Origin: a virus
Length of the DNA: 20,930 bases
Virus record (IMG/VR): IMGVR_UViG_3300012000_000147
Location: 1-20,930 of that record
Reading direction: 5' to 3' (one strand)
Shown here: positions 1,564-20,930 of the stretch, one piece after another
Numbering within the stretch: the first letter of the stretch is position 1
Layout: each line of letters starts with the position of its first letter
Made by a program: the position numbers and the translations under genes
The notes under the pieces: generated by a model
The model's database searches: none
Seen by the model: only the letters and a program-made list of their open reading frames with translations
What the model was told of the DNA's origin: nothing

Positions 1564-2523
1564 TTAGTAAGTTATTGAGCCTGAGCCAGTAAATGTATAA
1601 TAAGTGTATCCGCCAGATACTATTCTAGTAGGTGAGCCAGTAGTTGCTGATGCGGTATATGTTCCAGGTATTCTTAAAATAAGAATTCCTGAACCACCGT
1701 TACCACCAAGACCATTTGGATTTGGTCCACCACCTGCACCACCGCCGCCGCCTGTATTGGCAGTACCTGATACTCCAGCAGTTGAACTTTGGTTAATACC
1801 ACCACGTCCACCACCACCAGAACCACCAGCACCACCAACTACTCCAGCACCTAGTGTAGTGGAGTACGCTCCACCGCCACCTCCACCAGCATAGTAATAA
1901 TTTCCAGAGACTAATTGACCAGTAGATGTTGCAGCACCAATGTTATTTAATAATGAAGAAGTCGCACCAATACCACCAACACCTAGTGTTGTTGCATTGC
2001 CGTTGCCACCAACCGCACCTGCACCACCGCCACCTCCAGAAGCACCAACGTAAGTACCATTAGATGCTGTTGAATTACCACCTGCGTAACCTTCTACTGG
2101 GGAATAAGAACCAGCGTTACCAGCAGAACCTGAGAAGTTACCACTACCACTACCACCTGCTCCACCACCAGAACCGCCAGTAATGTATGCGGAATCTTCA
2201 TTGTTTCCACCACCTCCGCCACCTGTGGCAGATATTGTAGTAAAACCTGAACCTGAAATTAAACTATTGGAACCTCTTGATACGGGACCTCCACCAAAAG
2301 TTCCACCTGTTGAACCTGCTCCAATAGTGCAAGTATAAGTAGTTCCGCTCACAAGTGACTGAGATGCTAGTGCTCGCAATCCACCAGCACCACCGCCGCC
2401 ACCGTAACCGTAGTAACCACCACCGCCACCTGCAACTACAAAAACATCTACAGGAATAAATGGAGCATTACCAACTAGCAGTGAGCCACTTTTAGTTTTG
2501 TTTTTAATACTGATAACAGCCAT
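1564..2523 (-). CDS. Glycine-rich tail adhesin-like protein, third paralogue
   Basis: A 319-aa protein dominated by runs of Gly with Ala, Ser, Thr and Tyr. It opens MAVISIKNKTKSGSLLVGN, matching the N-termini of the two upstream paralogues (Ser-Leu/Ile-Lys ... Ser-Leu-Leu-Val/Ala-Gly-Asn). It then goes straight into the glycine-rich part (VFVVAGGGGG from about residue 28). Unlike its paralogues, the Tyr-rich strand motif is at the C-terminus (SGGYTYYTFTGSGSITY) instead of before the glycine domain. Such domains can fold as packed polyglycine-II helices in phage fibre-tip adhesins (known for phage S16 gp38), so receptor binding is a reasonable inference. The start is two bases after the preceding stop, with only a weak GGCGG ribosome site. 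Confidence 0.85.
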   Translation of the reverse strand: MAVISIKNKTKSGSLLVGNAPFIPVDVFVVAGGGGGYYGYGGGGGAGGLRALASQSLVSGTTYTCTIGAGSTGGTFGGGPVSRGSNSLISGSGFTTISATGGGGGGNNEDSAYITGGSGGGAGGSGSGNFSGSAGNAGSYSPVEGYAGGNSTASNGTYVGASGGGGGAGAVGGNGNATTLGVGGIGATSSLLNNIGAATSTGQLVSGNYYYAGGGGGGAYSTTLGAGVVGGAGGSGGGGRGGINQSSTAGVSGTANTGGGGGAGGGPNPNGLGGNGGSGILILRIPGTYTASATTGSPTRIVSGGYTYYTFTGSGSITY

Positions 2524-2525
2524 TA

Positions 2526-3392
2526 TTATACCGCCGTCTTTAAGTAACGAATAATCACAATACCTGAACCGCCAGTGCCAGAACCACCACCGCCGCCAGA
2601 GCCAGTGTTAGCAGTGCCTGGTCCACCGCTTCCTTGGTAACCAATTCCACCACCGCCTAATGCAGCAGCAGGATTACCACCATAAATTGCAGGACCAAAA
2701 CTTCCACCTCCGCCACCAGCGTAGTATCCGCTTACACCAGTAGAAGTTGCTGTAGCCCAAGATGAGTAAGCACCAGTACCGTCTCCACCTTTACCACCAG
2801 AACCTGTGTTACCAGTTCCGTTGTTACCTGCAGCGCCAGCACCACCACCTCCACCGCCACCAGTTACCTGTGATGCAACGCCAGCACCATTACCACCAGA
2901 ATTACCTTGACCAGATGTACCAGTGCCTCCAGTTAGCGGACCAGAACCGTCACCTCCACCACCACCTGAACCACCAGAAGAACCATTTCCTCCAGGTGCG
3001 CCGCCTTTACCACCACCAATTGCAGCAGATAAAGAACCAAAAACAGAATTATTTCCATTTGAACTGACACTTCCACCTGCGCCAACAGTTACTGTGTGTG
3101 AAGTTGTAGAAAGAGTTTGAGATGAGTAGTACGCTACACCGCCTGCTCCACCACCACCTGAACCATTGCTACTACTTCCACTTCCTGCACCACCACCAGC
3201 AATAACTAAAACATCAGCAAGCAGTGGAACACTAGAAACATCAAGTGTTCCTGATGTTGTAAAAGTACGGTAATAATAAGTAGAGTCAGATGACAATGTT
3301 CCACCAGTCACAACAGAAGGTGGTTGATAACCAGTATTACCAACAAGGAGACTGCGACTGAACGCTCCAGTCTTAAGACTTCTAATAGCCAT
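2526..3392 (-). CDS. Glycine-rich tail adhesin-like protein, second paralogue
   Basis: A 288-aa protein. Residues 1-25 (MAIRSLKTGAFSRSLLVGN, NTGYQP) and the strand block VTGGTLSSDSTYYYRTFTTS (about residues 29-48) are close copies of the upstream paralogue. A glycine-rich domain with GGGG/GAGG/GGSG repeats runs from about residue 68 nearly to the end, closing with SGIVIIRYLK. The ending VIIRY(L/T)K is shared with the first paralogue, so it is probably a capping strand. The gene starts ten bases after its neighbour behind AAGGAGTAACA, the standard ribosome-site form of this operon, which overlaps the previous stop. Likely role: fibre-tip or receptor-binding component (inference). Confidence 0.86.
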   Translation of the reverse strand: MAIRSLKTGAFSRSLLVGNTGYQPPSVVTGGTLSSDSTYYYRTFTTSGTLDVSSVPLLADVLVIAGGGAGSGSSSNGSGGGGAGGVAYYSSQTLSTTSHTVTVGAGGSVSSNGNNSVFGSLSAAIGGGKGGAPGGNGSSGGSGGGGGDGSGPLTGGTGTSGQGNSGGNGAGVASQVTGGGGGGGAGAAGNNGTGNTGSGGKGGDGTGAYSSWATATSTGVSGYYAGGGGGSFGPAIYGGNPAAALGGGGIGYQGSGGPGTANTGSGGGGGSGTGGSGIVIIRYLKTAV

Positions 3393-3401
3393 TGTTACTC
3401 C

Positions 3402-4262
3402 TTAAGCAATTTGTGATTTTGTATATCGAATAATTACTACGCCTGAGTTTCCATTACCTTGAATACCTGAGCCTCCGCCTGTGTTAACACCGCGACCATA
3501 GGTTACGGGTCCAGTCGGTCCAGAATCTCCATAGCCACTGCCTCCTGCTGCAAACCAATAAGTTCCAGAGTCTAATTCACCAATACCTGCTGCAGAGCCC
3601 CAAGATGAATAAGTAGATACACCTGCTCCACCTCGTCCACCTTGTCCATTGCCAGCATTACTTCCTGCGCCTCCAGCACCACCGCCGCCACCACCAGCAG
3701 CGTTACCTGATGGATTGCCTAATCCACCAGCAAAGCCTTGACCTGATGTGCCAGCACCGCCTGATACGGAAAAACTTGAGAATGAACCACCAGCACCTCC
3801 ACCAGAGCCACCACTGCGACCAGTTTGAGTTCCTTGCGTTGAGTATGAACCTCCACCACCACCGCCAACAGTCGCTGTTAATCCAGTAAATGTAGTTGCC
3901 GTTCCATCTCCACCTTGACCGCCAGCACTTCCGCCAGTTCCAGTTCCACCAGCACCTACAGTAACAGTTGAACTACCAGTAAGGGTTTGAGATGATGAAT
4001 AAAGTAAACCTCCAGCACCACCACCACCTGCTTGGTACTGACCTCCACCGCCGCCTCCTCCAGCAATTCTTAAAATATCAGCAGTAAGACTTCCACCTCC
4101 ACCAGTTACAGATAATGTGCCTGAACTAGTAAAAGCGCGATAGTAATAAGTTGCATCAGACGACAGTGTTCCACCAGTGACAGTTAATGGTTGATAACCA
4201 GTGTTACCAGCAAGTAAACTAGATGGAGATACAGTACCAGTCTTAAGACTAGAGATTGACAT
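3402..4262 (-). CDS. Glycine-rich tail adhesin-like protein, first paralogue
   Basis: A 286-aa protein: MSISSLKTGTVSPSSLLAGN at the N-terminus, a Tyr-rich strand block GGTLSSDATYYYRAFTSSGT (about residues 30-49), a glycine-rich domain from about residue 66 to 270, and the closing strand SGVVIIRYTK. It has no signal peptide and no enzymatic motif. It is the first of three tandem paralogues and shares more with the second than with the third. Its ATG overlaps the stop of the 108-aa gene by one base, so translation is probably coupled. The polyglycine architecture is known in phage adhesins that contact host surface receptors. That role is inferred here, and the host receptor cannot be read from sequence. 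Confidence 0.86.
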   Translation of the reverse strand: MSISSLKTGTVSPSSLLAGNTGYQPLTVTGGTLSSDATYYYRAFTSSGTLSVTGGGGSLTADILRIAGGGGGGGQYQAGGGGAGGLLYSSSQTLTGSSTVTVGAGGTGTGGSAGGQGGDGTATTFTGLTATVGGGGGGSYSTQGTQTGRSGGSGGGAGGSFSSFSVSGGAGTSGQGFAGGLGNPSGNAAGGGGGGAGGAGSNAGNGQGGRGGAGVSTYSSWGSAAGIGELDSGTYWFAAGGSGYGDSGPTGPVTYGRGVNTGGGSGIQGNGNSGVVIIRYTKSQIA

Positions 4263-9797: not shown

Positions 9798-10799
9798 TTA
9801 TGCGTTTGGACGGCCTGATGCCGCTGACTCGATACGTACCAATGCTGGGGTGCGATATAGCGCCCAGTTGATAACTCCGTACCAACCGACTGGGTTGAAA
9901 CGGTTGAAGCGGTCCTGGACCACTCCAATTTCCATACCTGGTTCCTTCCAGACTGCCTCAGCAAGTGCCTGTGCACCTGTTACGTATGTGTGATACACAC
10001 GTGTCTGAGAACCGCCTGCGCCTGAACCTGCCTGTGAGTTAGTTGCGTTTGCTGTCTCAATGAAGCGAACGCCTTCCCATGAACCTAGTTCTCCACCAAA
10101 TAGTGGTGCAGCGTTCTGGTAGTCGTGTGGTGTACGCCATACGTTGTTACCTGTCTCTGTGCGTAGGTCATTAGATACTTCTGGGTGAATGTATGCAACA
10201 AACATTCCAGCAGCCTTTGTCTGAACTCCAGCAGAACGCATCTTTGTAACTGCAGTGCGGATAGCAGCAGACTTAATTGTGTCTGCAGCCTGAATTGCTG
10301 TCTTAGCAGCAACTGTTCCAACGCCTTCATAAACGTTAGATACTGCACCTGTTCCGCCAGATACACGCACAATGTTTGTTCCTGCGTCTAACTTAGCAAC
10401 TACTGCAGCATCAAGTGTCTTTGTCATGTTGAAGCCAACTGCGTTAGCAACCCATGGGTCAATGTTTGCAAGTGACATCAAGTTAATCTTCTTAACTGGA
10501 AGTACTGAGCGACCAAGTTCTAGTTGTGCAACATCAATGTATGTTGTTGCTGGTAGTGCTACTGAGTCTGGGTCAACTGTCTCTGAGAGTGTTGCACCAG
10601 CCACTGTAGTATCAGCGATATCTGTGTTGAATTGGAAACGGATTGAAGAACCGTTATGAGTTAGTGAACCCACCTTCTTGTCCGCAATTTCACGGAACTT
10701 TGGAAGGACGCGAAGATTAGTCTCGATAAGTTTATCGTAGGCTAATGTTACAAGGTTGCTTCCTAACCCAGAGGATGTAGTTGTAAAGACATCTGCCAT
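9798..10799 (-). CDS. Major capsid protein, N4 gp56 family
   Basis: A 333-aa HK97-fold type capsid protein. Family features: a helical N-terminus (YDKLIETNLRVLPKFREIAD, about residues 20-39), the strand block SIRFQFNTDIADTTVAGATL with SETVDPDSVALPATTYIDVA, a middle region FVAYIHPEVSNDLRTETG followed by VWRTPHDYQNAAPLFGGELG and WEGVRFIETA, and the C-terminal VVQDRFNRFNPVGWYGVINW with ALVRIESA. These match N4 gp56-type capsid proteins of actinophages that I know. It forms the icosahedral shell. It lies directly after a scaffold gene, with a 39-base gap holding a hairpin and AAAGGTAGGA ahead of the ATG. An HK97-like cleaved N-terminal domain is not obvious, so maturation may rest on cleavage of the separate scaffold. 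Confidence 0.92.
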   Translation of the reverse strand: MADVFTTTSSGLGSNLVTLAYDKLIETNLRVLPKFREIADKKVGSLTHNGSSIRFQFNTDIADTTVAGATLSETVDPDSVALPATTYIDVAQLELGRSVLPVKKINLMSLANIDPWVANAVGFNMTKTLDAAVVAKLDAGTNIVRVSGGTGAVSNVYEGVGTVAAKTAIQAADTIKSAAIRTAVTKMRSAGVQTKAAGMFVAYIHPEVSNDLRTETGNNVWRTPHDYQNAAPLFGGELGSWEGVRFIETANATNSQAGSGAGGSQTRVYHTYVTGAQALAEAVWKEPGMEIGVVQDRFNRFNPVGWYGVINWALYRTPALVRIESAASGRPNA

Positions 10800-10827: not shown

Positions 10828-10846
10828 TCGCTTACGAATTAAGCGA
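10828..10846 (-). promoter_or_regulatory. Hairpin over the scaffold stop codon
   Basis: TCGCTTA (10828-10834) and TAAGCGA (10840-10846) form a perfect 7-bp stem with a 5-base loop. The stem covers the stop codon of the scaffold gene and ends about 18 bases before the capsid ribosome site. It could act in RNA processing or in setting scaffold-to-capsid output. No T-run is present. Confidence 0.5.
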
Positions 10847-11312
10847 GTGATTTGATAATTGCCATAATCTCTTCTTCAGAACCTGCGTTAGCAATTGCTC
10901 GCTCTAGGTCTTCAGAATAGGCGGGAGTATCAGCCGATTGAGTAGCAGAATCCTGTTGCTGTAAAGCACGTAGGTTTTCTGTATCAACCTTCTGTTCACC
11001 AGGTGTATACCCGATTACGTCACCATTCTCAACGAGCCAGTTAGATACTGCGTCTTCGTTGATAGTGTCTAAATCCTTAAGGATAAGACGGGTTGCCTTT
11101 GGATTTACTCCCTTTGATTCTAGGATTTCTCGGACAGTGCGTTCATTGGATTCACGAGAAAACTTCGCTAGTTGTTCCTCGAGTTCCTTAATGCGCTTTT
11201 CATCTGCTCTCTTGGCTTTGCGTAGGTTAGCGATACCCGCATCCTCATTTGAGTTAGAACGGTTTAACTCGTTCTCTAGATTGTCGTCTTCCCAGTATTG
11301 TTCGTTGCTCAT
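10839..11312 (-). CDS. Capsid scaffolding protein
   Basis: A 157-aa, highly charged, mostly helical protein directly before the capsid gene. Residues ~25-60 are a likely coiled coil (AKRADEKRIKELEEQLAKFS). The middle reads TVREILESKGVNPKATRLIL, followed by an acidic Gln/Ser-rich linker and a C-terminal helix pair (YSEDLERAIANAGSEEEIMA). Size, acidity, coiled coil and gene position are the standard picture of a phage scaffold, which guides shell assembly and is then removed or cleaved. The ATG follows AAGGGTGATGTTGC. This gene begins after the largest gap in the late operon (117 bases). Confidence 0.85.
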   Translation of the reverse strand: MSNEQYWEDDNLENELNRSNSNEDAGIANLRKAKRADEKRIKELEEQLAKFSRESNERTVREILESKGVNPKATRLILKDLDTINEDAVSNWLVENGDVIGYTPGEQKVDTENLRALQQQDSATQSADTPAYSEDLERAIANAGSEEEIMAIIKSLA

Positions 11313-11429: not shown

Positions 11430-12887
11430 TTAGAATGTGCTGGATTTACCGCTACCTAGTGCGCCACGGCCTAAGCCTGCTGCGCCACTAAATGTGCCTA
11501 CTTCTTTTTCGGCTAGTTTCAATCGCTTACGCTTGGCAGATTCAAGTTGTCCAAAGACTTCTTCTTCTGCTGTTTTCTGTGTGTAGTTAATTCCTTCTTC
11601 ACCATAAATCTGGCCAAGTTTTGTAGTAGTTGGTAATACATTGGCAATACCCTGATAACCTTCACGGGCTTGAGCCTTAGTAATACCCAACTGAGCAAGG
11701 GCAGTAGCACTAGATACATCTGTAAGTAAGTTCTGCTTAATTGCTTCAGAACCAATCTCAGCAGATAAAACCTTTTCCTGTAACTTAGGTAGATTTTCTT
11801 TAGGGTTAAGGAAGTAACCAACTAAATCTGTATCTTGAATGTTATAGAAACTCTTCAGAGTAGCCTTAACATTAGGGTCAGCATTGTTTACACGTGTTAC
11901 TACTGTGTCAATTCTGTCTTTAAACTCTGTAGCAGAGATATCATTACCAATAATATCAGCCATCTTAGACTGAGATACTTTGCGGTCTGTACCAAAATAC
12001 CCTTGAAGACCATAGGCACGGAGCGTTTCATTGTATGCATTCTCCAACTGTAAATACTCTGCTTCAGAAACTACGTTAAGTCCAGCCTGACGGCGAATCT
12101 CATTACCACGGAAGCGGGTAATATAAGCAGTAGTCTTTTTAAGTTCTATCGCTGCTTGGTTAGAACCAAGTCCTTCTTCCATGAATCGCTTGATATCTGG
12201 AATTAAATCTTCTAGGCCATAGTCCTTAAATGTACTCTCAAGCAATGTGTATGCATCTACATCTACTGTTGACTTATATTTATTGCCAGAAGCAATAAGA
12301 GTCTTAGTTGTTCCGTCAGAATAAACTCCAATAACATTACCATAGGCATCTGTTTCTGTAGAAACTAAAGTTGCTGTAGGAGATGTAACTTGAGTTGGAG
12401 TTATAGTATCTACTGTTGAACTACTAGAAGTTACAGATGTAGTTCCAGAATAACCAGGAATGTCATAGAGTTGCCATTGACCTGTATCCGTTCCACCAAT
12501 CCACGCATAGTACTTTCCAGCAGGAGCATCAGTAGGCTTTACTGCTTTATTAAGAAGCGGATTTTCTGCTATTGCATTTTGACGTGCTAGTTTTTCCGCT
12601 GCTTGCTTACGCTTTAAAAATGCCGAGTTACTTTCACCTTCAAATTTTGTCATTACATCTGGGTTAATAGCCCCAAGTTCTGTTGCTGTATTTTCTAAAG
12701 TTGAAATACGTGCTGTTGTTTTTGCAATCTGACTTTCTACTTGCTCAAGAAAAGTTTGTGGTCTAGATGCTGCATTTGCTTTTGACATGGCTTTAGTTCT
12801 GGCTTTTTCTGCAGCATCAGATACGTCAATAGTTGGTGTTGGTGCTACATAATTATAAAATGCATTATCTCTATCTAGTCGCGCCAT
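11430..12887 (-). CDS. Probable internal virion (ejected) protein, 485 aa
   Basis: A 485-aa protein with no enzymatic motif. Residues 1-110 are helical and charged (AAEKARTKAMSKANAASRPQ). Residues ~125-205 are a Thr/Ser-rich linker with short beta modules (GKYYAWIGGTDTGQWQLYDI, TDAYGNVIGVYSDGTTK). The C-terminal half is helical, with ENAYNETLRAYGLQGYFGTD and IIGNDISATEFKDRIDTVVT. The end GAAGLGRGALGSGKSSTF is flexible. I associate the layout (a minimal-length helical module reading EF-x-x-R-[IV]) with internal or tail-tip virion proteins of actinophages, but no family name can be given. It shares its start with the stop of the 420-aa gene (one-base overlap), so the pair is likely produced together. 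Confidence 0.7.
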   Translation of the reverse strand: MARLDRDNAFYNYVAPTPTIDVSDAAEKARTKAMSKANAASRPQTFLEQVESQIAKTTARISTLENTATELGAINPDVMTKFEGESNSAFLKRKQAAEKLARQNAIAENPLLNKAVKPTDAPAGKYYAWIGGTDTGQWQLYDIPGYSGTTSVTSSSSTVDTITPTQVTSPTATLVSTETDAYGNVIGVYSDGTTKTLIASGNKYKSTVDVDAYTLLESTFKDYGLEDLIPDIKRFMEEGLGSNQAAIELKKTTAYITRFRGNEIRRQAGLNVVSEAEYLQLENAYNETLRAYGLQGYFGTDRKVSQSKMADIIGNDISATEFKDRIDTVVTRVNNADPNVKATLKSFYNIQDTDLVGYFLNPKENLPKLQEKVLSAEIGSEAIKQNLLTDVSSATALAQLGITKAQAREGYQGIANVLPTTTKLGQIYGEEGINYTQKTAEEEVFGQLESAKRKRLKLAEKEVGTFSGAAGLGRGALGSGKSSTF

Positions 12888-14149
12888 TATGCCATCAGTC
12901 CAAACGTGCGAAGAATCTCAAGGGCATAACCTGATGCTTCTTTGCGGGCACCTGGTGACTTAAGCCATAGTTCTTTTGTTTTAGGGCTGGTACGTAGTAA
13001 TTTTTCGTAGTCTTTAATACTCATAACTCCAGCCTTTTGTGCTCCCGTTGCATCTCTATTAGACATGGCTGATTGAATATCTTCATCAAAGATACTAATT
13101 GAATTATCTGGAATTCCAAGTAACTTACCTTTGAAGTAAGCGTATTGATTTGCAATATCAGATGGCTTAACGCCCTCATCAATTAGACCAGAGATGTTTC
13201 CATAAAAACCTTTAGCCATGCTCTTAATAGTATTCTTGGCAGAATCTAGGTCAGTCTTGCCACTAGGAGTAAAGACTCCCATTACCTTATCAAGAGCCTG
13301 CTTAGTATCTAACTTGATACCAAAAGATGATGCATACTCTTTAATCTCTTGAACATCTTGGGCTACTTTACCGTTGTTCTTTGTAAGACCTTCTAGGTCA
13401 GTTCCCTTGATTGCTGGTTTAAGAATTGTAGCCTTGATACGAGAGTAATCTTCAGCATCTAAATACTCGCCAACTGTGGTTGTCTTACCACCAGCAGTTG
13501 TAGTCTGCTTAACTAGCGCAGCCTTTTCTTCCTTATTTACCTGAGTATAGTATGCAGACTTTTCATCAGTAGTTGCTCTACGGCCCAGCATCTGGAAGAA
13601 GTAATCATCAATCTCTTGGTCTGTCTGAGTCTTGCTAGATAGATTAAGACCTGAACCATTACGGTTATCTCCACCAGTACCAACACCAACATACTTATTA
13701 AGAAGGGAATCAAAACTCTGTGTGATTAAGATTCCACTATCTTGGAAGTTCATAACTGCTTCTACTGAAACTTTGCTTGCTGCATCAGTAAGAGCACGGG
13801 CTAAACCAACTACATCTTTAGTATCATACTCTGACTTATTCATATAGCCAGCGTCATAAAGACGCTTGCGTAGATATTCAATACCTTTACCAGCCTTAGC
13901 CTCAGCCATATACCTAGAGCGAACCTCTTCTGCACTAAGTACTTCGTAATCACCCTTTGAGTTAATGTAAAGGTAAACACGACCTGGCTTTGCAGCATTC
14001 TCGTTTCCACTTAGAATCCACTGCGTTCCATCTTTAACAACTTGATAAGGACCAGTAGGGCCAAAGTCCTCAGTCATATCCTTTAATGTTGAATTACCAA
14101 CAGATTTATTTGCGTTAGCACGTGCCTCATCTGGTGACTTGTCTACCAT
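12887..14149 (-). CDS. Probable internal virion protein, 420 aa
   Basis: A 420-aa protein from an ATG with a strong GGAGGT site inside the end of the previous gene. Its A overlaps that stop. Residues ~75-120 read EEVRSRYMAEAKAGKGIEYL, RKRLYDAGYMNKSEYDTK and VVGLARALTDAASKVS, which faintly resembles a peptidoglycan-binding helix set. A second module (QEIDDYFFQMLGRRATTDEK, about residues 178-197) is a motif seen in actinophage virion proteins of unknown role. The rest is helical, with no catalytic signature. Position between the 1705-aa and 485-aa genes suggests one virion-internal or injection complex, which is inference. Confidence 0.7.
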   Translation of the reverse strand: MVDKSPDEARANANKSVGNSTLKDMTEDFGPTGPYQVVKDGTQWILSGNENAAKPGRVYLYINSKGDYEVLSAEEVRSRYMAEAKAGKGIEYLRKRLYDAGYMNKSEYDTKDVVGLARALTDAASKVSVEAVMNFQDSGILITQSFDSLLNKYVGVGTGGDNRNGSGLNLSSKTQTDQEIDDYFFQMLGRRATTDEKSAYYTQVNKEEKAALVKQTTTAGGKTTTVGEYLDAEDYSRIKATILKPAIKGTDLEGLTKNNGKVAQDVQEIKEYASSFGIKLDTKQALDKVMGVFTPSGKTDLDSAKNTIKSMAKGFYGNISGLIDEGVKPSDIANQYAYFKGKLLGIPDNSISIFDEDIQSAMSNRDATGAQKAGVMSIKDYEKLLRTSPKTKELWLKSPGARKEASGYALEILRTFGLMA

Positions 14150-17100
14150 TATCGGACCTCCGTTGTGTATGTGTCACGAGAGTAGAAACCTAAGATTGGT
14201 GCAAACACTGCTCTATTGGCCTCTCTGATTGCTGGGTCTAATTGAATCAAGTCATTTAGAACCTGTTCAATTTGTGCCTTCTTGGCACGCTTTAAGTCTG
14301 AGAAGTTCCAGATGCGTCTGCTCTCTGGGTCTTCTGAGAAGGAAATAAACTCACGCATTAGGGATGTAATAGTTCCCATGTTCTTGCGAACCTGAGCAGA
14401 TACTGGTGTTGACTTATCTGCAATTACTTGTTCAATAGATGAAAGGATTTCTTTCTCTGTTGATACTTCAAATCCGCCAGTCTCAAGGGCTTTACGTAGC
14501 AGTGGATAGCCAGCCTTTAATGCATTGCGTCTTGCAGTTGCTTGGTTAATAAGTCCCTTACGGGTTTCAGGAGCAGCAGTCTTAGAAAGAGCATCGCGCT
14601 CATCGCGCTCAATATCAAAGTATGCCTGCTTAGCCTGAGCAATAGATACATTATCTAGATAGGTTTCAAGGCTAGGTAGTTTAATTAATCCTTGTGCCTC
14701 TAGCCAAGTGTATGCATCTGCTGTGTAATCTCCAGTTTGTGGGCCAAAGATATACGCTGCTTCACCATAAGTCTTAAGGAATGACTGGTTATTAGAAGCC
14801 CACTTATACATACTATCTGTCTTTTGGATGGCTATCTTTGTAGCCTTCTCATTACGAGATACTGTATAAATAATCTTGCGTGGGTTCTTACCTACAAATG
14901 TAGCAACTGCTAACTCATATGGGTCTGATAACCAATCGCCTTCAGTCTTTGAGATACCAGCCAAGATGTCGTAGAACTCGGCACGCATGTTAGTAATACC
15001 AGTTGACTTAATATAGTCTGGAACACTTTTGCTCTCACGAAGTGTTGGTGAAATTGGGCTAATCATTCCAAAGAAAGCACGTGCTGCTAACACATTGTGT
15101 GCTGCAATCTTAAATGTCTTTAGATACTCGGCTTTCTGTGCATCTGTTGGATTAGCAGGTAGTTGAAGTTTTGGGTCTCCAAATGCCTGCATATATGCAA
15201 TAGCCTGAAATGCTGCAGTTGTTTCTTGACGATTCATCTCATCAATATCAATTGCACGGGCTGTTGCACCACGACCAATGGTTTCTAGGTTCTGCAAGAA
15301 CAATGGCATAAGCGCCTTGCGCAAATCCATGTTATCGCCAAGGTTTCCTAACGCCCAAGAATCATAGTTATTAGCAAAGTTAGTAGCCTTATCACCTAAC
15401 TTACCTGGAATGTAGCCAAGCATTCCCTTAATACCAAGGAATGATAACGCTGCAACTGGGCCAGATAGTGATGGTTGTCCTGCATCTGGAGAGAATGATG
15501 GGTTAATCAAACGTAGTTTGAGAGTAACATCATTAAACTGTGGAATCTTAAATGCTCCGCCAGTAAACTTACGTACCACTGGCTCAACTGCTGTGTTAAT
15601 AATTGTGTCAGTTGGTAGTACTACGTATGGTTCACCTTGGTCATCATAGTAAATCTCACCACGAGCAGATAATCCCTGATGTGCTAGACGCATACGATAG
15701 ATAACCTGTAATGGCTTCTCACGCATTAAGCGGTAGTAGCGTCTCCAGAAGTCTTCTGTTGCACGATAGAAACGTGCTACTGTGCGAGTAGATAGTGCAA
15801 AGTTAGAACGGATTGCAGGGTTATCTACATACTTAAGGATAGTATTTGAAGCCTCATCCATAGCAAGTTCTGTATAGCGCTTAGCAGCCATAGTATCTGC
15901 TGCTTCACGGGCAATTAGTGGGTCTTTGTAGACACCATCATCAATGAACTGCTTGTATATCTTATCTGCAAACTCTTTCTGCAGTCCTTCATATCCGTCA
16001 CGAAGACGGCTATAGGTTGTAAGAATTGCAGGCTGACGGAATAGACCATTTACCTGACGGTCCATTGACTCCATAATCGCATTACCAAACTTGCCCCATG
16101 CAGATTCTAGGTCAGCCTTATCCATGAACTCTTCAAATTCAATGCTGGTGTTAATCTCACCAGTTGGTTGTTTGCCAACAGTAGCCTTTTCAAAGTCTTC
16201 AAATGAAGTTTGGCTTGCAGCCTTGGACCATTTACCAGCAACCTTCTTACCAGATTCCATTTCATACTTAACTAGGTCGCCATGCTTGCGACTCATTAAG
16301 TCAAATAGGTCTTGGTTAAAAGACTTAGGACCACCATGGAATGTATTGCGCATATCAAGCAACATAGTCTCTACGTGGATACGTGCAATCTCTGCATCTG
16401 GAATACCACGTTGGCGGAAATGCACAGAATCGCCAAACAGTGATAGGAACTCTTTAGTTACTGCTGGTCGCTTTACAATAAACTGACGAGTAGTAAAATC
16501 GTAATCTACGCCTAGAATCTTAAGCATATTAGTTCTAGCAGTGGCAAAGTCTTTAGCAGTTTTTAATCCATTGTTATTGAAGAATACTGCTGCTGGGTCT
16601 ACTGTTTCACCAGTCTTGAGTGAATACTTGTTAGCAGCAAACTGGCGATACCATGTATCAAAGTGTGCAAGAGTTAGATACTTATCGTTAGTACGGCGTA
16701 GTTCCTCTGTAGATAGTGGGCGGAACTTACGGCCAGTCTTAACTCCAACTTCATTTAACGCTAAATTAAGTGTAGATGGTGTGAAGATAGCATCAATAAT
16801 TTCTTTATCGAACTTACCACCAAGGGATGTTCGAGCAGATACAGATGAAGCCATTGAGTTAATAACATCTGGATGATGCACAAATGCATCCTTTAGCCAC
16901 TTGAAGCGGGTAATAGATTCATCTACACCAAAAACATCATAGACTCGTTTTACTGTTTCTTCACGAATCATCATGTGTGTTACTTCTTCAATTGGAATAC
17001 CTTTAGATGCTGCAATATCACCAGCAATCATTGCACGGTCCTCAACACTGAGTGTCTCTTCTGGACCGCCCTTACGAAATGCCTTGTTAATTCCACGGCG

Positions 17101-19266
17101 AATAGGTCCAACAGATGACTTAGAACCAGTAAGTGCTGTGGCTACATTCTTAAACTCCTGAACATCCTTTACCTTTCGTAATGAAAGTAGGTCTGTTAGT
17201 GGAGTATTAAGGGCGTACATAAACGCCTCATCAATAGCAGAACGAATACCTAAACGTGGAAATAGTGTAAGAATTGTCCAGAAATTAACAAACTCTGAAA
17301 CATACTTGTTACGTGTAGCGCCATCAAAGATAGCGGGGATAGAGTTCTTGCGGCGTGTAGATGCAGCAACCTGAAGAATCTGTTCGTATGGTAGTGAACC
17401 AATACCTTCTGCTACCTGACTAGGCTGCACAATACCACGGGCATTGAGGATAGGAGAATCATTCTCAATACGCACTACGTGCTGGCTAATATCATCTACA
17501 AAATCTGTAGGTACTTCTGTTCGAGAAGTAGTAGTCATACCAGAACGATTATTGAAAGTCTTATTAAGAATCTCTTCCATAATCTTACGGCCTTCGGCTG
17601 TGCCGTGTAGACCATAACGGTGCATAACCGCTGCGTATAGGTTACGAATAATAATAACCTGCTCATCAGCCTCTGAATCCAAGAAATGGAATGTCACAAA
17701 GTCTGCAATATCACGGGTAAATACCTGTCGTGCTACAAGTCGGAAGTTTTCTGCAGTCTTAACTGCATCTTCTCCAAGAAGAATCTGTGTACCAGCAGGG
17801 TTACGGCTTGCAGACTTACCAACAATCTCACCAATTCTGCGTGCACGCTTAATATCTTTATCAATGTCCACAAAGCGCTGAATGCCTGCTATGTTAACAC
17901 CCTTATCAATATCTGCACCAGCAGTCTTAAGGATTGTTACAGCATCAATGCCTTTATTCTGTGCACTAGCAAGAGCAACTGCAGTTTTTTCATTAGCAGC
18001 ATTAGGATTCATAATGGCATCTACTACTTTGCCAATACCCATACTGATATGACGCTCTGATTGTGCAGTTGGCACACCATTGCGCATAAAAGTTACACCA
18101 TCAACACGGCCATTAAGTAGAATGTTTACATTCTCTACCTCGCCAAAGAAGTTTTGTGCAGTCTCTGCATCAAAAACTTTCTTTTGTGCTAGTAATGTAG
18201 CAACTTTAAAGTCATTAAATCCAGGATAGTTCTGAACTAACTCACGATAAGTGTTTGACTTCTCCATTGAACCCTTTTTGGCTTCAGCAAACTTCTTAAT
18301 TGCTGGGCCTACGCCATTATCCCAAAGGGATTTAACGCTAGGGTCTGCAAATGTCTGACGGATTGCACCCTTAAAGTTACCTTTAGATGCTTCCTTCATA
18401 ATGTTATCTGCAATACGGCCACCTTTAGTAGCAATCTTGCTAGTTCCACCAGTTATATATGTCAGTGGGTCTACAACAATCTGATACAAAGCATCAATTG
18501 TTCCAGTTACACCAGTCTGATACTTACCAGTAAGCACACGTGTAGTTAGATTTCCACTTCGTGCTTGGTTAGCCTGATAGATGCTACGGTATAAGTCGCG
18601 ACCTGGTGAGATAGCAGCAGCCTTAGTATCAAAAATAATCTGCGCAAACTCTTTTTCATTATCAAATGCATAGGAAATAGCATCAAGAATCTTTGGGTCT
18701 GGCTTTCCATAGGCTTCAATAATTTCGCCAGGAGTTTTACCAGATAATAAACCTTGTGCTACAAAAGTATTTTCTTTTCCATACTTTCCCTGCACTGCTT
18801 GAATAGCACCTTTATCCCAAGCATCGCGACCATTGTATGCATCGTCCCAAGTCTGCTTAGAGAATGGGTCAGCACCTTGTGCAATCTCTCGTCCTGCTAC
18901 ATATCCAGTATTAAGAGCCTTGCCGTATTCTGCTGCTGCTTGAAATGTTGCAACAATAGGGCTAAAAAATCCCTTAGCAGCCTTACCAACAAGACCAATA
19001 CCACGCTGAAGCAGGGTTGGGTCTTCCTGAACAAACTTTGCATTAGGATAAAGAGCCTTAATGTTTACCTGTGCCTCTTCTGTTAATGCTTGAAACTCAC
19101 GCTTGGCTTTATTTGTATCCATAGCACGAAGTTGTTTTGCTTTTTTAACAGTGTAAGATAGTTGCTCAACAGCAACCTGCTGGTCTATAGATAGATTAGC
19201 GTTCTTGGCTGCATTATAAACGGCAGGATTAGTCTCACCTACTACTGGATTTAGTATGCGGGCCAT
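14149..19266 (-). CDS. Giant virion protein, probable internal/ejection protein (1705 aa)
   Basis: The largest gene in the window. It is predominantly helical and rich in Ala, Lys and Arg, without a recognisable catalytic motif, signal peptide or long coiled coil. Moderately hydrophobic segments occur near residues 655-690 (FVNFWTILTLFPRLG, FMYALNTPLTDLL) and 1262-1290 (SGPVAALSFLGIKGMLGYIP). These could insert in membrane during DNA entry. Residues 1160-1220 are Arg/Tyr rich (ARFYRATEDFWRRYYRLMRE). Length and composition fit internal virion proteins of short-tailed phages, which are ejected ahead of DNA. A tape measure is less likely because no tail-tube gene or assembly-chaperone gene accompanies it and it lies before the scaffold. 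A MuF-like or polyvalent protein is another possibility given its place after the portal. The ATG overlaps the previous stop by one base with a weak ribosome site, implying coupling. Confidence 0.75.
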   Translation of the reverse strand: MARILNPVVGETNPAVYNAAKNANLSIDQQVAVEQLSYTVKKAKQLRAMDTNKAKREFQALTEEAQVNIKALYPNAKFVQEDPTLLQRGIGLVGKAAKGFFSPIVATFQAAAEYGKALNTGYVAGREIAQGADPFSKQTWDDAYNGRDAWDKGAIQAVQGKYGKENTFVAQGLLSGKTPGEIIEAYGKPDPKILDAISYAFDNEKEFAQIIFDTKAAAISPGRDLYRSIYQANQARSGNLTTRVLTGKYQTGVTGTIDALYQIVVDPLTYITGGTSKIATKGGRIADNIMKEASKGNFKGAIRQTFADPSVKSLWDNGVGPAIKKFAEAKKGSMEKSNTYRELVQNYPGFNDFKVATLLAQKKVFDAETAQNFFGEVENVNILLNGRVDGVTFMRNGVPTAQSERHISMGIGKVVDAIMNPNAANEKTAVALASAQNKGIDAVTILKTAGADIDKGVNIAGIQRFVDIDKDIKRARRIGEIVGKSASRNPAGTQILLGEDAVKTAENFRLVARQVFTRDIADFVTFHFLDSEADEQVIIIRNLYAAVMHRYGLHGTAEGRKIMEEILNKTFNNRSGMTTTSRTEVPTDFVDDISQHVVRIENDSPILNARGIVQPSQVAEGIGSLPYEQILQVAASTRRKNSIPAIFDGATRNKYVSEFVNFWTILTLFPRLGIRSAIDEAFMYALNTPLTDLLSLRKVKDVQEFKNVATALTGSKSSVGPIRRGINKAFRKGGPEETLSVEDRAMIAGDIAASKGIPIEEVTHMMIREETVKRVYDVFGVDESITRFKWLKDAFVHHPDVINSMASSVSARTSLGGKFDKEIIDAIFTPSTLNLALNEVGVKTGRKFRPLSTEELRRTNDKYLTLAHFDTWYRQFAANKYSLKTGETVDPAAVFFNNNGLKTAKDFATARTNMLKILGVDYDFTTRQFIVKRPAVTKEFLSLFGDSVHFRQRGIPDAEIARIHVETMLLDMRNTFHGGPKSFNQDLFDLMSRKHGDLVKYEMESGKKVAGKWSKAASQTSFEDFEKATVGKQPTGEINTSIEFEEFMDKADLESAWGKFGNAIMESMDRQVNGLFRQPAILTTYSRLRDGYEGLQKEFADKIYKQFIDDGVYKDPLIAREAADTMAAKRYTELAMDEASNTILKYVDNPAIRSNFALSTRTVARFYRATEDFWRRYYRLMREKPLQVIYRMRLAHQGLSARGEIYYDDQGEPYVVLPTDTIINTAVEPVVRKFTGGAFKIPQFNDVTLKLRLINPSFSPDAGQPSLSGPVAALSFLGIKGMLGYIPGKLGDKATNFANNYDSWALGNLGDNMDLRKALMPLFLQNLETIGRGATARAIDIDEMNRQETTAAFQAIAYMQAFGDPKLQLPANPTDAQKAEYLKTFKIAAHNVLAARAFFGMISPISPTLRESKSVPDYIKSTGITNMRAEFYDILAGISKTEGDWLSDPYELAVATFVGKNPRKIIYTVSRNEKATKIAIQKTDSMYKWASNNQSFLKTYGEAAYIFGPQTGDYTADAYTWLEAQGLIKLPSLETYLDNVSIAQAKQAYFDIERDERDALSKTAAPETRKGLINQATARRNALKAGYPLLRKALETGGFEVSTEKEILSSIEQVIADKSTPVSAQVRKNMGTITSLMREFISFSEDPESRRIWNFSDLKRAKKAQIEQVLNDLIQLDPAIREANRAVFAPILGFYSRDTYTTEVR

Positions 19267-19670
19267 TAGTACCCATATTCAGCAAGGGTGGAGTAAATAA
19301 GTTCTGCTTCTCCAGTTGGGTCAAACTGTGCAATCTTGCGCATAGTCACAGAAATAGGTTCTTTTGTATTAGGAAGGTTAAGTGCTTCACTTCCTGGGCC
19401 AGGGCCAATGTTTACACCAGATGTAATTGGCTCGTTAGGACGAGTTGTTTTAGCAAACAATTCTGTTGGCATATCTACAGTAGCCATAGGATTTCCAGCC
19501 ATTGGTGCTGCTACTTGGTTTGAGTAGGTCTCTTGTCCTTGTCCATATGGAAGTCCTGAGATGTACTTTGCACCTTGTGTTGGTCCCCCGTCAGTGCGCT
19601 GAGAAAGAGCGCCAGGACCTGAAACTGGTGCTGGGTTAGACGGTTCACGGTAACCACCTTGTGTTGCCAT
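19266..19670 (-). CDS. Pro/Gly-rich small virion-region protein
   Basis: A 134-aa protein beginning MATQGGYREPSNPAPVSGPG, with a flexible first two thirds (Pro, Gly, Thr, Gln) containing GGPTQGAKYISGLPYGQGQE, and a structured C-terminal piece (VTMRKIAQFDPTGEAELIYS, then TLAEYGY). The opening GGYREPSNPAPVSGPGALSQ is a family I recognise from uncultured actinobacterial phages, always near the portal. Function unknown. The ribosome site AAGGAG lies within the acidic C-terminus of the upstream gene, and the ATG overlaps its stop by one base. It may be a minor capsid or portal-associated peptide. Confidence 0.82.
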   Translation of the reverse strand: MATQGGYREPSNPAPVSGPGALSQRTDGGPTQGAKYISGLPYGQGQETYSNQVAAPMAGNPMATVDMPTELFAKTTRPNEPITSGVNIGPGPGSEALNLPNTKEPISVTMRKIAQFDPTGEAELIYSTLAEYGY

Positions 19671-19945
19671 TATTCATCTCCTTCATCTTCCAAATCATCT
19701 TCAACTTCTTCTTTTGGCTGGCCAAGGGAATCTTTGTTGTACTCCTTTGCCAAACGCATCATGCCTTCAGCATTCCAGGGTGTCATTGCTTCTGACACTT
19801 CCGTATGCAAGTACCGAGTTCCATCGTAATCTGCCCATTCTGTAATTATTAGCCAGTTAGCGCAGATAAAGTTATACCCTTCAGGGTCTTCCTCTATTAG
19901 AACTTGTAGTGCTTGCTCTATCTTCTCCCTGAATTGTTTACTCAT
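19670..19945 (-). CDS. Small acidic actinophage protein
   Basis: A 91-aa protein from the ATG at 19945, which overlaps the protease stop as ATGA. A longer frame to 20002 would intrude into the protease gene and is rejected. The core reads ICANWLIITEWADYDGTRYL and then TPWNAEGMMRLAKEY, resembling a small actinophage family with the pattern W-[VL]-x-[IV]-x-E-x-x-[DN]-x-[DE]-G-x-R-x-[LM] ... [TS]-P-W-x-x-x-G-M[LM]. The C-terminus is extremely acidic (EEVEDDLEDEGDE). Direct coupling to the protease suggests the two may act together, for example as a regulator or partner. This is inference. Confidence 0.82.
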   Translation of the reverse strand: MSKQFREKIEQALQVLIEEDPEGYNFICANWLIITEWADYDGTRYLHTEVSEAMTPWNAEGMMRLAKEYNKDSLGQPKEEVEDDLEDEGDE

Positions 19946-20511
19946 TTTGCGTACTGAATCTTTGTTATAATTGGTGGGCTTGTATAAATATCCCACACAC
20001 AAGCAATCTCAATTGCTTTGCGAATTATTTTTTCTGCTTGTTCTGGTGTTTCACACTTATCAATATCAAGAGCCTCCATAACACCCAGAGCAACATCGCC
20101 GCCGTTGCCACCATAGTAGATGCCACGAATATCACGGTCCCAAGAATAATCTTGAAATACAGGATAAAGGACTCCGTTAACGCTGATAATAAAATCTGAA
20201 TCTTGCGCTGCAGCATCCCCATCTTCTTTCATATCATAACCTGCATCAATAAAAGTTTTACGCATAGTAGGGATAAACTTTTGCGTCATAAACAAATCTA
20301 AGTTTTCTAACTTAGTTGGTTTAGGTGGCTTCCATCCAAACTGCAAGATGTTTGAACCACGACTAGCGCCAGAACCTGCAATGAGGTATCCGTTGTTTTC
20401 AATAATCTTATGAGTAGCAATCGTCATAGGACGACCTGCTTCATCAGATGCTCTAGAATCGCAGCCGATTACAGACCAACCATCTCCTTGATAAGCAGCA
20501 AGTGTTGTCAT
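19942..20511 (-). CDS. Proteasome/HslV-type Ntn hydrolase, candidate head maturation protease
   Basis: A 189-aa protein starting MTTLAAYQGDGWSVIGCDSR. Counting the Thr after the initiator Met as 1, it has Thr1, Asp17 (in GCDSR), Lys34 (THKI, against Lys33 in HslV with one inserted residue) and Gly47 in the AGSGAS strand turn. These are the catalytic and oxyanion positions of proteasome beta subunits and HslV. Later YGGNGGDVALGVMEAL matches the HslV helix entry, with Asn where HslV has Ser. The end VWDIYTSPPIITKI parallels the Asp-x-x-Ser-Gly closing strand. With no propeptide, Met removal alone would expose the nucleophile. It lies 14 bases after the probable portal gene and upstream of scaffold and capsid, the place normally held by a head maturation protease. 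The fold assignment is strong. Cleavage of scaffold or capsid is inference. Confidence 0.88.
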   Translation of the reverse strand: MTTLAAYQGDGWSVIGCDSRASDEAGRPMTIATHKIIENNGYLIAGSGASRGSNILQFGWKPPKPTKLENLDLFMTQKFIPTMRKTFIDAGYDMKEDGDAAAQDSDFIISVNGVLYPVFQDYSWDRDIRGIYYGGNGGDVALGVMEALDIDKCETPEQAEKIIRKAIEIACVWDIYTSPPIITKIQYAK

Positions 20512-20525
20512 TGTCCCCTACCTAG

Positions 20526-20930
20526 TTATCTTTGGGTTACGGTTCGTGCCGAAGCGTTTGCTGTTCCGCCCATTGTTAGGCTGGAAAGTAGACTTTGTAA
20601 TCCTTGCGGAGGTTGAGCGCCACCTGCTGGAGATGCGGCGGGAGCAGGGGACGGTTGCTCAACCATAGATGCTTCCCCAGCAGGTGGTAATTCTGGAGCG
20701 AACACATCATTGATTGCGTCCTCAATCTGAGTGCCCTTCTGGCGCATACGGATAACCTCTGCAATCTTCTTAACGATTGTAGTTGGGTCGCCGCCATTTG
20801 CAATAAGTTGTGGAATTGCCTGTGCTGAAGCATTAAGAGATGAGATAAGCGCATTGCGCATTTCCTCAACTTCAATCTTTTCCTGCTCCTGAGTTACGTT
20901 AACTCCAAATGGCAATTCACGCTGTGCTAA
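20526..20930 (-). CDS. Probable portal protein, C-terminal part (runs off right edge)
   Basis: The frame is open to the right edge (134 codons visible), so the start lies outside the window. An in-frame TTG near 20915 is only an internal Leu. The visible sequence LPFGVNVTQEQEKIEVEEMR continues through a helical stretch (ALISSLNASAQAIPQLIANG) with KIAEVIRMRQKG. A Pro/Ala/Gln-rich flexible tail follows (PSPAPAASPAGGAQPPQGLQ). A helical region with a Pro/Gln tail just before a maturation protease fits the C-terminus of a phage portal. The conserved portal core is not in view, so this rests on position and composition. Confidence 0.6.
   Translation of the reverse strand, partial: LAQRELPFGVNVTQEQEKIEVEEMRNALISSLNASAQAIPQLIANGGDPTTIVKKIAEVIRMRQKGTQIEDAINDVFAPELPPAGEASMVEQPSPAPAASPAGGAQPPQGLQSLLSSLTMGGTANASARTVTQR

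Follow-up and report, generated by a model that had tools for sequence, protein, structure and literature searches.

The DNA analysed here (the window) is a stretch of 20,930 nucleotides from a virus, positions 1 to 20,930 of IMG/VR record IMGVR_UViG_3300012000_000147. It carries a gene for a proteasome-like threonine peptidase on the minus strand, between the portal gene and a series of genes that includes those for the scaffold and the major capsid protein. The features of this region are as follows.

20526..20930, minus strand: portal protein, C-terminal part, truncated at the end of the window; 14 bases separate it from the peptidase gene downstream
19942..20511, minus strand, stop codon included: proteasome-like (HslV/BPH-type, PHROG 1040) threonine peptidase, 189 aa, no propeptide beyond Met
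20506..20508, minus strand: codon of Thr1, the nucleophile bared on Met removal; read from the sequence, invariant
20458..20460, minus strand: codon of Asp17; read from the sequence, invariant
20407..20409, minus strand: codon of Lys34 (Lys33 of the proteasome); read from the sequence, invariant
20368..20370, minus strand: codon of Gly47, oxyanion hole; read from the sequence, invariant
19670..19948, minus strand: c52, small acidic protein of 92 aa; roughly every second peptidase-bearing locus has it
19266..19670, minus strand: c5 (PHROG 8200), the conserved next gene of the module, assigned by PHROG match and conserved order
14149..19266, minus strand: giant protein of 1705 aa, probable internal or ejection protein; its homologous group matches the giant protein of phage Immanuel3
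12887..14149, minus strand: c6, probable internal or ejection protein; Streptomyces phage homologs have NlpC/P60 or SLT domains
11430..12887, minus strand: c7, probable internal or ejection protein, conserved module member
10839..11312, minus strand: scaffold protein, 157 aa, weak gp46/scaffold match
9798..10799, minus strand: major capsid protein, Phage_capsid_3 / N4 gp56 type (Pfam E 9.8e-15; PHROG E 1.3e-53)

The peptidase sequence begins MTTLAAYQGDGWSVIGCDSRASDE, and the plus strand of 19942-20511 holds no open frame. Residues are numbered from the threonine, with the initiator Met taken off. The initial annotation had placed this gene between the portal and the scaffold and capsid genes and had seen no second protease in that interval. 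Both points were confirmed: the portal gene lies upstream, the scaffold and N4 gp56-type capsid genes lie downstream, and a Pfam scan of the window found no further protease between the portal and capsid genes. The c6 protein of the window itself gave no Pfam match. Its family corresponds to two adjacent Immanuel3 genes with NlpC/P60 and SLT domains (L279:12251-14862), and these domains make c6 a probable ejection protein that degrades the cell wall.

Thr1, Asp17, Lys34 and Gly47 had been read as the catalytic frame of an Ntn-hydrolase with a proteasome/HslV-like fold, and both the frame and the fold held on closer analysis. The four residues were unchanged in 215/215 full-length relatives, with identities down to ~30%. 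Six additional relatives start with MTA, not MTT, so that Thr1 is held although residue 2 varies. As there is no propeptide, ordinary Met removal would bare Thr1. Comparisons of the window gene with its relatives gave dN/dS values of ~0.11-0.19, which supports evolution under purifying selection.

Profile searches assigned the protein to a known family. Residues 1-184 matched PHROG 1040 ('peptidase HslV family') with E 7e-19, and the three other peptidase types found in related phages matched it with E 6e-26 to 4e-30 (one member tested per type). With Pfam PF00227, the window protein alone scored 17.2 bits, under the cut-off of 22.4 bits, while the peptidase of cultured phage E7 (see below) matched with E 1.2e-5. 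A profile built from 40 relatives retrieved BPH (E 2e-9) and HslV (E 1.7e-8) from the PDB sequences, and proteasome beta chains were also matched. The AlphaFold model of the peptidase (mean pLDDT 88.8, pTM 0.86) had HslV 1yyf as its top Foldseek match (E 8.5e-10), and BPH 5ovs was aligned to it with a TM-score of 0.76. HslV and BPH are thus the best matches by structure and profile, yet share only ~18-19% identity with the window protein. The family itself is already known, both as PHROG 1040 and through the group I proteasome homologs.

Helices at 50-58, 71-89, 138-147 and 156-173 of the model correspond to H1-H4 around a beta core, with no H5 extension. Like the group I homologs BPH, AAH, CPH, PPH and HslV (PMC8665760), the peptidase has Thr1, Asp17 and the equivalent of Lys33, together with Gly47, four helices and a compact C-terminus, and it has no propeptide. 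By sequence and model, it is a genuine proteasome-type protease subunit, predicted to be group I proteasome-like and kin to HslV and BPH. Phages are known to encode two of the group I homologs, PPH and AAH (Fuchs, Alva and Lupas 2021, PMC8665760). PPH was rejected as the identity of the peptidase because of its length and the presence of helix H2: the window protein has 189 aa with H2 at 71-89, whereas PPH has ~140 aa and no H2. The same survey could find no phage specific to Actinobacteria that encodes AAH (PMC8665760); if the peptidase is AAH, this gap is filled.

The intact invariant active site, the fold and the dN/dS values together predict that the peptidase is very probably active, or at minimum selected for the upkeep of its active site. 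Activity is not assured, since BPH, a close structural match, was inert on standard substrates (PMC5777263). The inner pore loop of BPH is acidic, as is that of the peptidase (net charge -5 in the window protein, -1 to -5 across relatives); a tetradecameric double ring is a feature of BPH.

The gene is carried by a large virus group that infects freshwater Actinobacteria. WhiB genes occur in the group, and two of its members, LanE43AprE7 (E7, OX376640) and LanE43AprF5 (OX376641), are Planktophila phages isolated on 'Ca. Planktophila' LanE-43 (PMC10202952). The group is actinobacterial on these two grounds, the host assignment being taken from the cultured isolates; bacterial genome contigs searched with portal and peptidase gave no matches. 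The portal gene was present in all 31 records examined first. In near-complete records the gene order is terL, portal, peptidase, (c52), c5, a protein of 1500-1900 aa, c6, c7, scaffold and N4 gp56-type capsid, and in almost every locus 13-19 bases separate portal and peptidase. A survey of gene neighbourhoods, as proposed in the initial annotation, always found the peptidase together with an N4 gp56-type capsid. The peptidases of E7 and F5 are of a different type, ~30% identical to that of the window, and the one of E7 was shown to occupy the identical slot.

Among other cultured phages, the closest relatives are the Beephvirinae, Streptomyces podophages such as Immanuel3, Fabian and Abafar, with portals 42-45% identical. 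Homologs of terL, portal, c5, giant, c6, c7 and capsid were found there in equal order, with the scaffold in its place, the scaffold match being weak and seen in one of two phages. They lack an HslV-like peptidase, and small unrelated genes occupy the slot. The phages DSL-LC01, Pitbull, Pumpernickel, MTATph1, pT24 and VpV262 share the PHROG 1040 family by profile or annotation, along with the N-terminal Thr and the fold. Their genes are located with early genes, tRNA genes, genes of nucleotide metabolism or genes at the genome end, whereas in the window's group the gene lies strictly after the portal.

Among 257 distinct portal-to-c5 slots, the peptidase was present in 223 and absent from 34, and in the portal clade of the window it was found in 67 loci and missing in one; the surveyed viral contigs are fragments and the loci were selected for resemblance to a small number of portals and peptidases, so these proportions do not equal population frequencies. 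An unrelated protein of ~75 aa, q57, occupies 32 of the 34 peptidase-free slots (for example L266:14489-14716, minus strand; motif YSKLDxYAIxLHEYYKSLRKAGF) and never shares one of the 257 slots with the peptidase. It had no match in PHROG. Of 301 loci with the peptidase, 162 have the small protein c52 (motif LISEWADYxGxRFLHTEVSExMTPWNA) behind it; in two loci, L405 and L409, c52 is the sole occupant of the slot. Very lysine-rich, fast-evolving proteins of up to 540 aa lie between terL and portal in L211, L217, L258 and L264, loci of the peptidase-lacking type.

Phages with and without the gene are otherwise closely similar. The capsid proteins of G031 and G033, which lack the peptidase, are 97% identical to that of the bearing phage G040, and the scaffolds 83-85%. 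Over all loci, the best pairs of lacking and bearing phages reach 96-97% identity in the scaffold and 91-97% in the capsid. The genes c5, giant, c6 and c7 are retained in peptidase-lacking relatives. A hidden substitute protease was considered and rejected: no HslV-like gene was found anywhere in nine peptidase-lacking records, two of them of 37-40 kb, and no Pfam protease was detected in the 41 proteins and the giant protein of G031, a near-complete record. On the portal tree, the lacking lineages nest within bearing ones. The slot genes of the Beephvirinae show no homology to q57 or c52, and gain and loss of the peptidase are therefore not polarisable from them.

The peptidase is also exchanged between phages of the group. 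Four types with a mutual identity of about 30-40% were distinguished; mapped onto a portal tree with 41 representatives, these types and absence require no fewer than 16 changes. Between E7 and G021 the portal is 84%, the capsid 79% and terL within 79-84% identical; the peptidases, in the identical slot, share only 29%. Distance correlations, computed on raw distances that ignore shared ancestry, were 0.82-0.88 among portal, scaffold and capsid, compared with 0.19 for the peptidase with the capsid and 0.42 with the scaffold; with the c5-giant-c6-c7 block they were weak (0.37-0.48). Even in capsid pairs of 90-95% identity, the peptidase state was equal in only 56%. These comparisons support a peptidase evolution decoupled from that of the capsid.

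From the sequence evidence, the protein is probably a catalytically competent accessory peptidase, exchangeable between phages and acting in the infected actinobacterial cell. The strict position, conserved active site, exchange of types, loss and exclusive alternative q57 point to an accessory gene under host selection rather than a core assembly factor, and the early, tRNA, nucleotide-metabolism or genome-end surroundings of homologs in other phages also fit action in the cell. The best reading of the swapping is that it resembles that of host-interaction genes. The peptidase would thus be encoded by an exchangeable gene in the fixed portal-c5 slot of the late gene block and be synthesized late along with the portal, as its location directly after the portal gene suggests. 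Its subunits would assemble into a ring, which may be a double ring of 12 or 14 subunits, with the active sites facing inward and, alone or with a host unfoldase, would break down or trim unfolded or specific proteins of the infected cell, serving host takeover or a counter-host function; the head would mature without it. The fixed place beside the portal through every swap could indicate a structural role, and homologous recombination at the conserved flanks is another explanation.

One alternative places the peptidase in the virion, where it would trim or accompany the ejection proteins (giant, c6 and c7) and act either on these or inside the cell just infected. The gene heads the c5-giant-c6-c7 block, in which c5, c6 and c7 co-vary, and c6 homologs carry cell-wall hydrolase domains. 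However, the weak correlation with this block, its retention by peptidase-lacking relatives and the lack of a visible cleavage motif make such a role rather unlikely.

Another alternative, a specific mechanism that overlaps with the proposed accessory role in the cell, is that the peptidase replaces or competes with a host protease chamber on an AAA+ unfoldase of the proteasome or Clp type. The actinobacterial host (WhiB genes in the genomes; isolates on 'Ca. Planktophila', PMC10202952) is compatible with this. The partner of HslV is HslU, and a scan of most proteins of phages G012 and E7 detected no HslU/ClpX-like gene. A phage-encoded partner was rejected, the only AAA match traced in E7 being a DnaB-like helicase. 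Against the mechanism stands the acidic, fairly long pore loop, as in BPH, which is seemingly without unfoldase regulation (PMC8665760), and we regard hijacking of this kind as possible but not likely.

The initial annotation favoured a role in prohead maturation. A protease of this kind would be packed in the procapsid, where it would digest the scaffold or shorten the capsid protein. In favour of it, the position is between portal and scaffold, always together with an N4 gp56-type capsid, in a module without any other protease, and E7 has another HslV-like type in its place. A maturation protease should be indispensable to every phage with its capsid and scaffold, unless another protease replaces it, and should evolve with its substrates; neither pattern was observed. 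Close relatives have near-identical scaffold and capsid proteins without the gene, and the peptidase is thus very probably not a head-maturing enzyme. No substitute was found in the lacking records examined, the Streptomyces relatives carry the module without a peptidase, and the evolution of the peptidase is decoupled from that of the capsid (correlation 0.19; 56% shared state). Furthermore, the capsid proteins open with a conserved short N-arm, no long prodomain was seen, and the homologs in other phages lie mostly outside head genes. N4-type heads are not known to need an internal protease. Such a protease is likewise dispensable for P22, T7 and SPP1 (PMC6813328). Head maturation was therefore rejected as the leading reading and is very unlikely; a putative role in degrading host proteins or interfering with proteolysis in the host fits better. 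There is only a slim chance that the peptidase works in the assembling head of most phages of the group, as the first head protease of the proteasome fold, with q57 relatives clearing or tolerating the scaffold non-proteolytically through q57.

A non-degradative enzyme of this fold, such as a connectase-like ligase, or a latent enzyme, is hardly probable: connectase proves that the fold can ligate (PMC8665760) and BPH was inert in assays (PMC5777263), but the model has each of the four helices seen in members that form chambers and shows no connectase-like two-helix insertion.

No function has been assigned to phage proteasome-like proteins, and the main survey of the family found no suggestive genomic context (PMC8665760). 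What seems to be new is that the slot is fixed, that q57 and the peptidase exclude each other, and that types are exchanged on such a scale in a group with cultured phages. In an abundant group of freshwater phages, hundreds of contigs carry several interchangeable types in this one slot, and natural pairs with and without the gene are available for studying the role of the peptidase. Since the gene is present in a cultured phage of a cultured host (LanE43AprE7), this role can be tested directly. The attractive assignment to head maturation is also corrected here as probably wrong.

Several further observations were made in these genomes. Another family of N-terminal-nucleophile hydrolases would be represented by a class II glutamine amidotransferase-like protein of 270-300 aa (start MCILVV...HGYGFAI), conserved in the early region of several group phages (L095:3221-4075; G040:20089-20910, equivalent to L271:89-910). 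In the window, three consecutive glycine-rich ORFs of 286-319 aa, alike in make-up, lie at 1564-4262 on the minus strand near a tail-fibre-like gene; regions of this kind have been described as hypervariable in isolated Planktophila phages. A lone plus-strand ORF amid minus-strand genes (709-1137) has HNH-endonuclease-like cysteine pairs and a relative in G003, and probably encodes a homing endonuclease.
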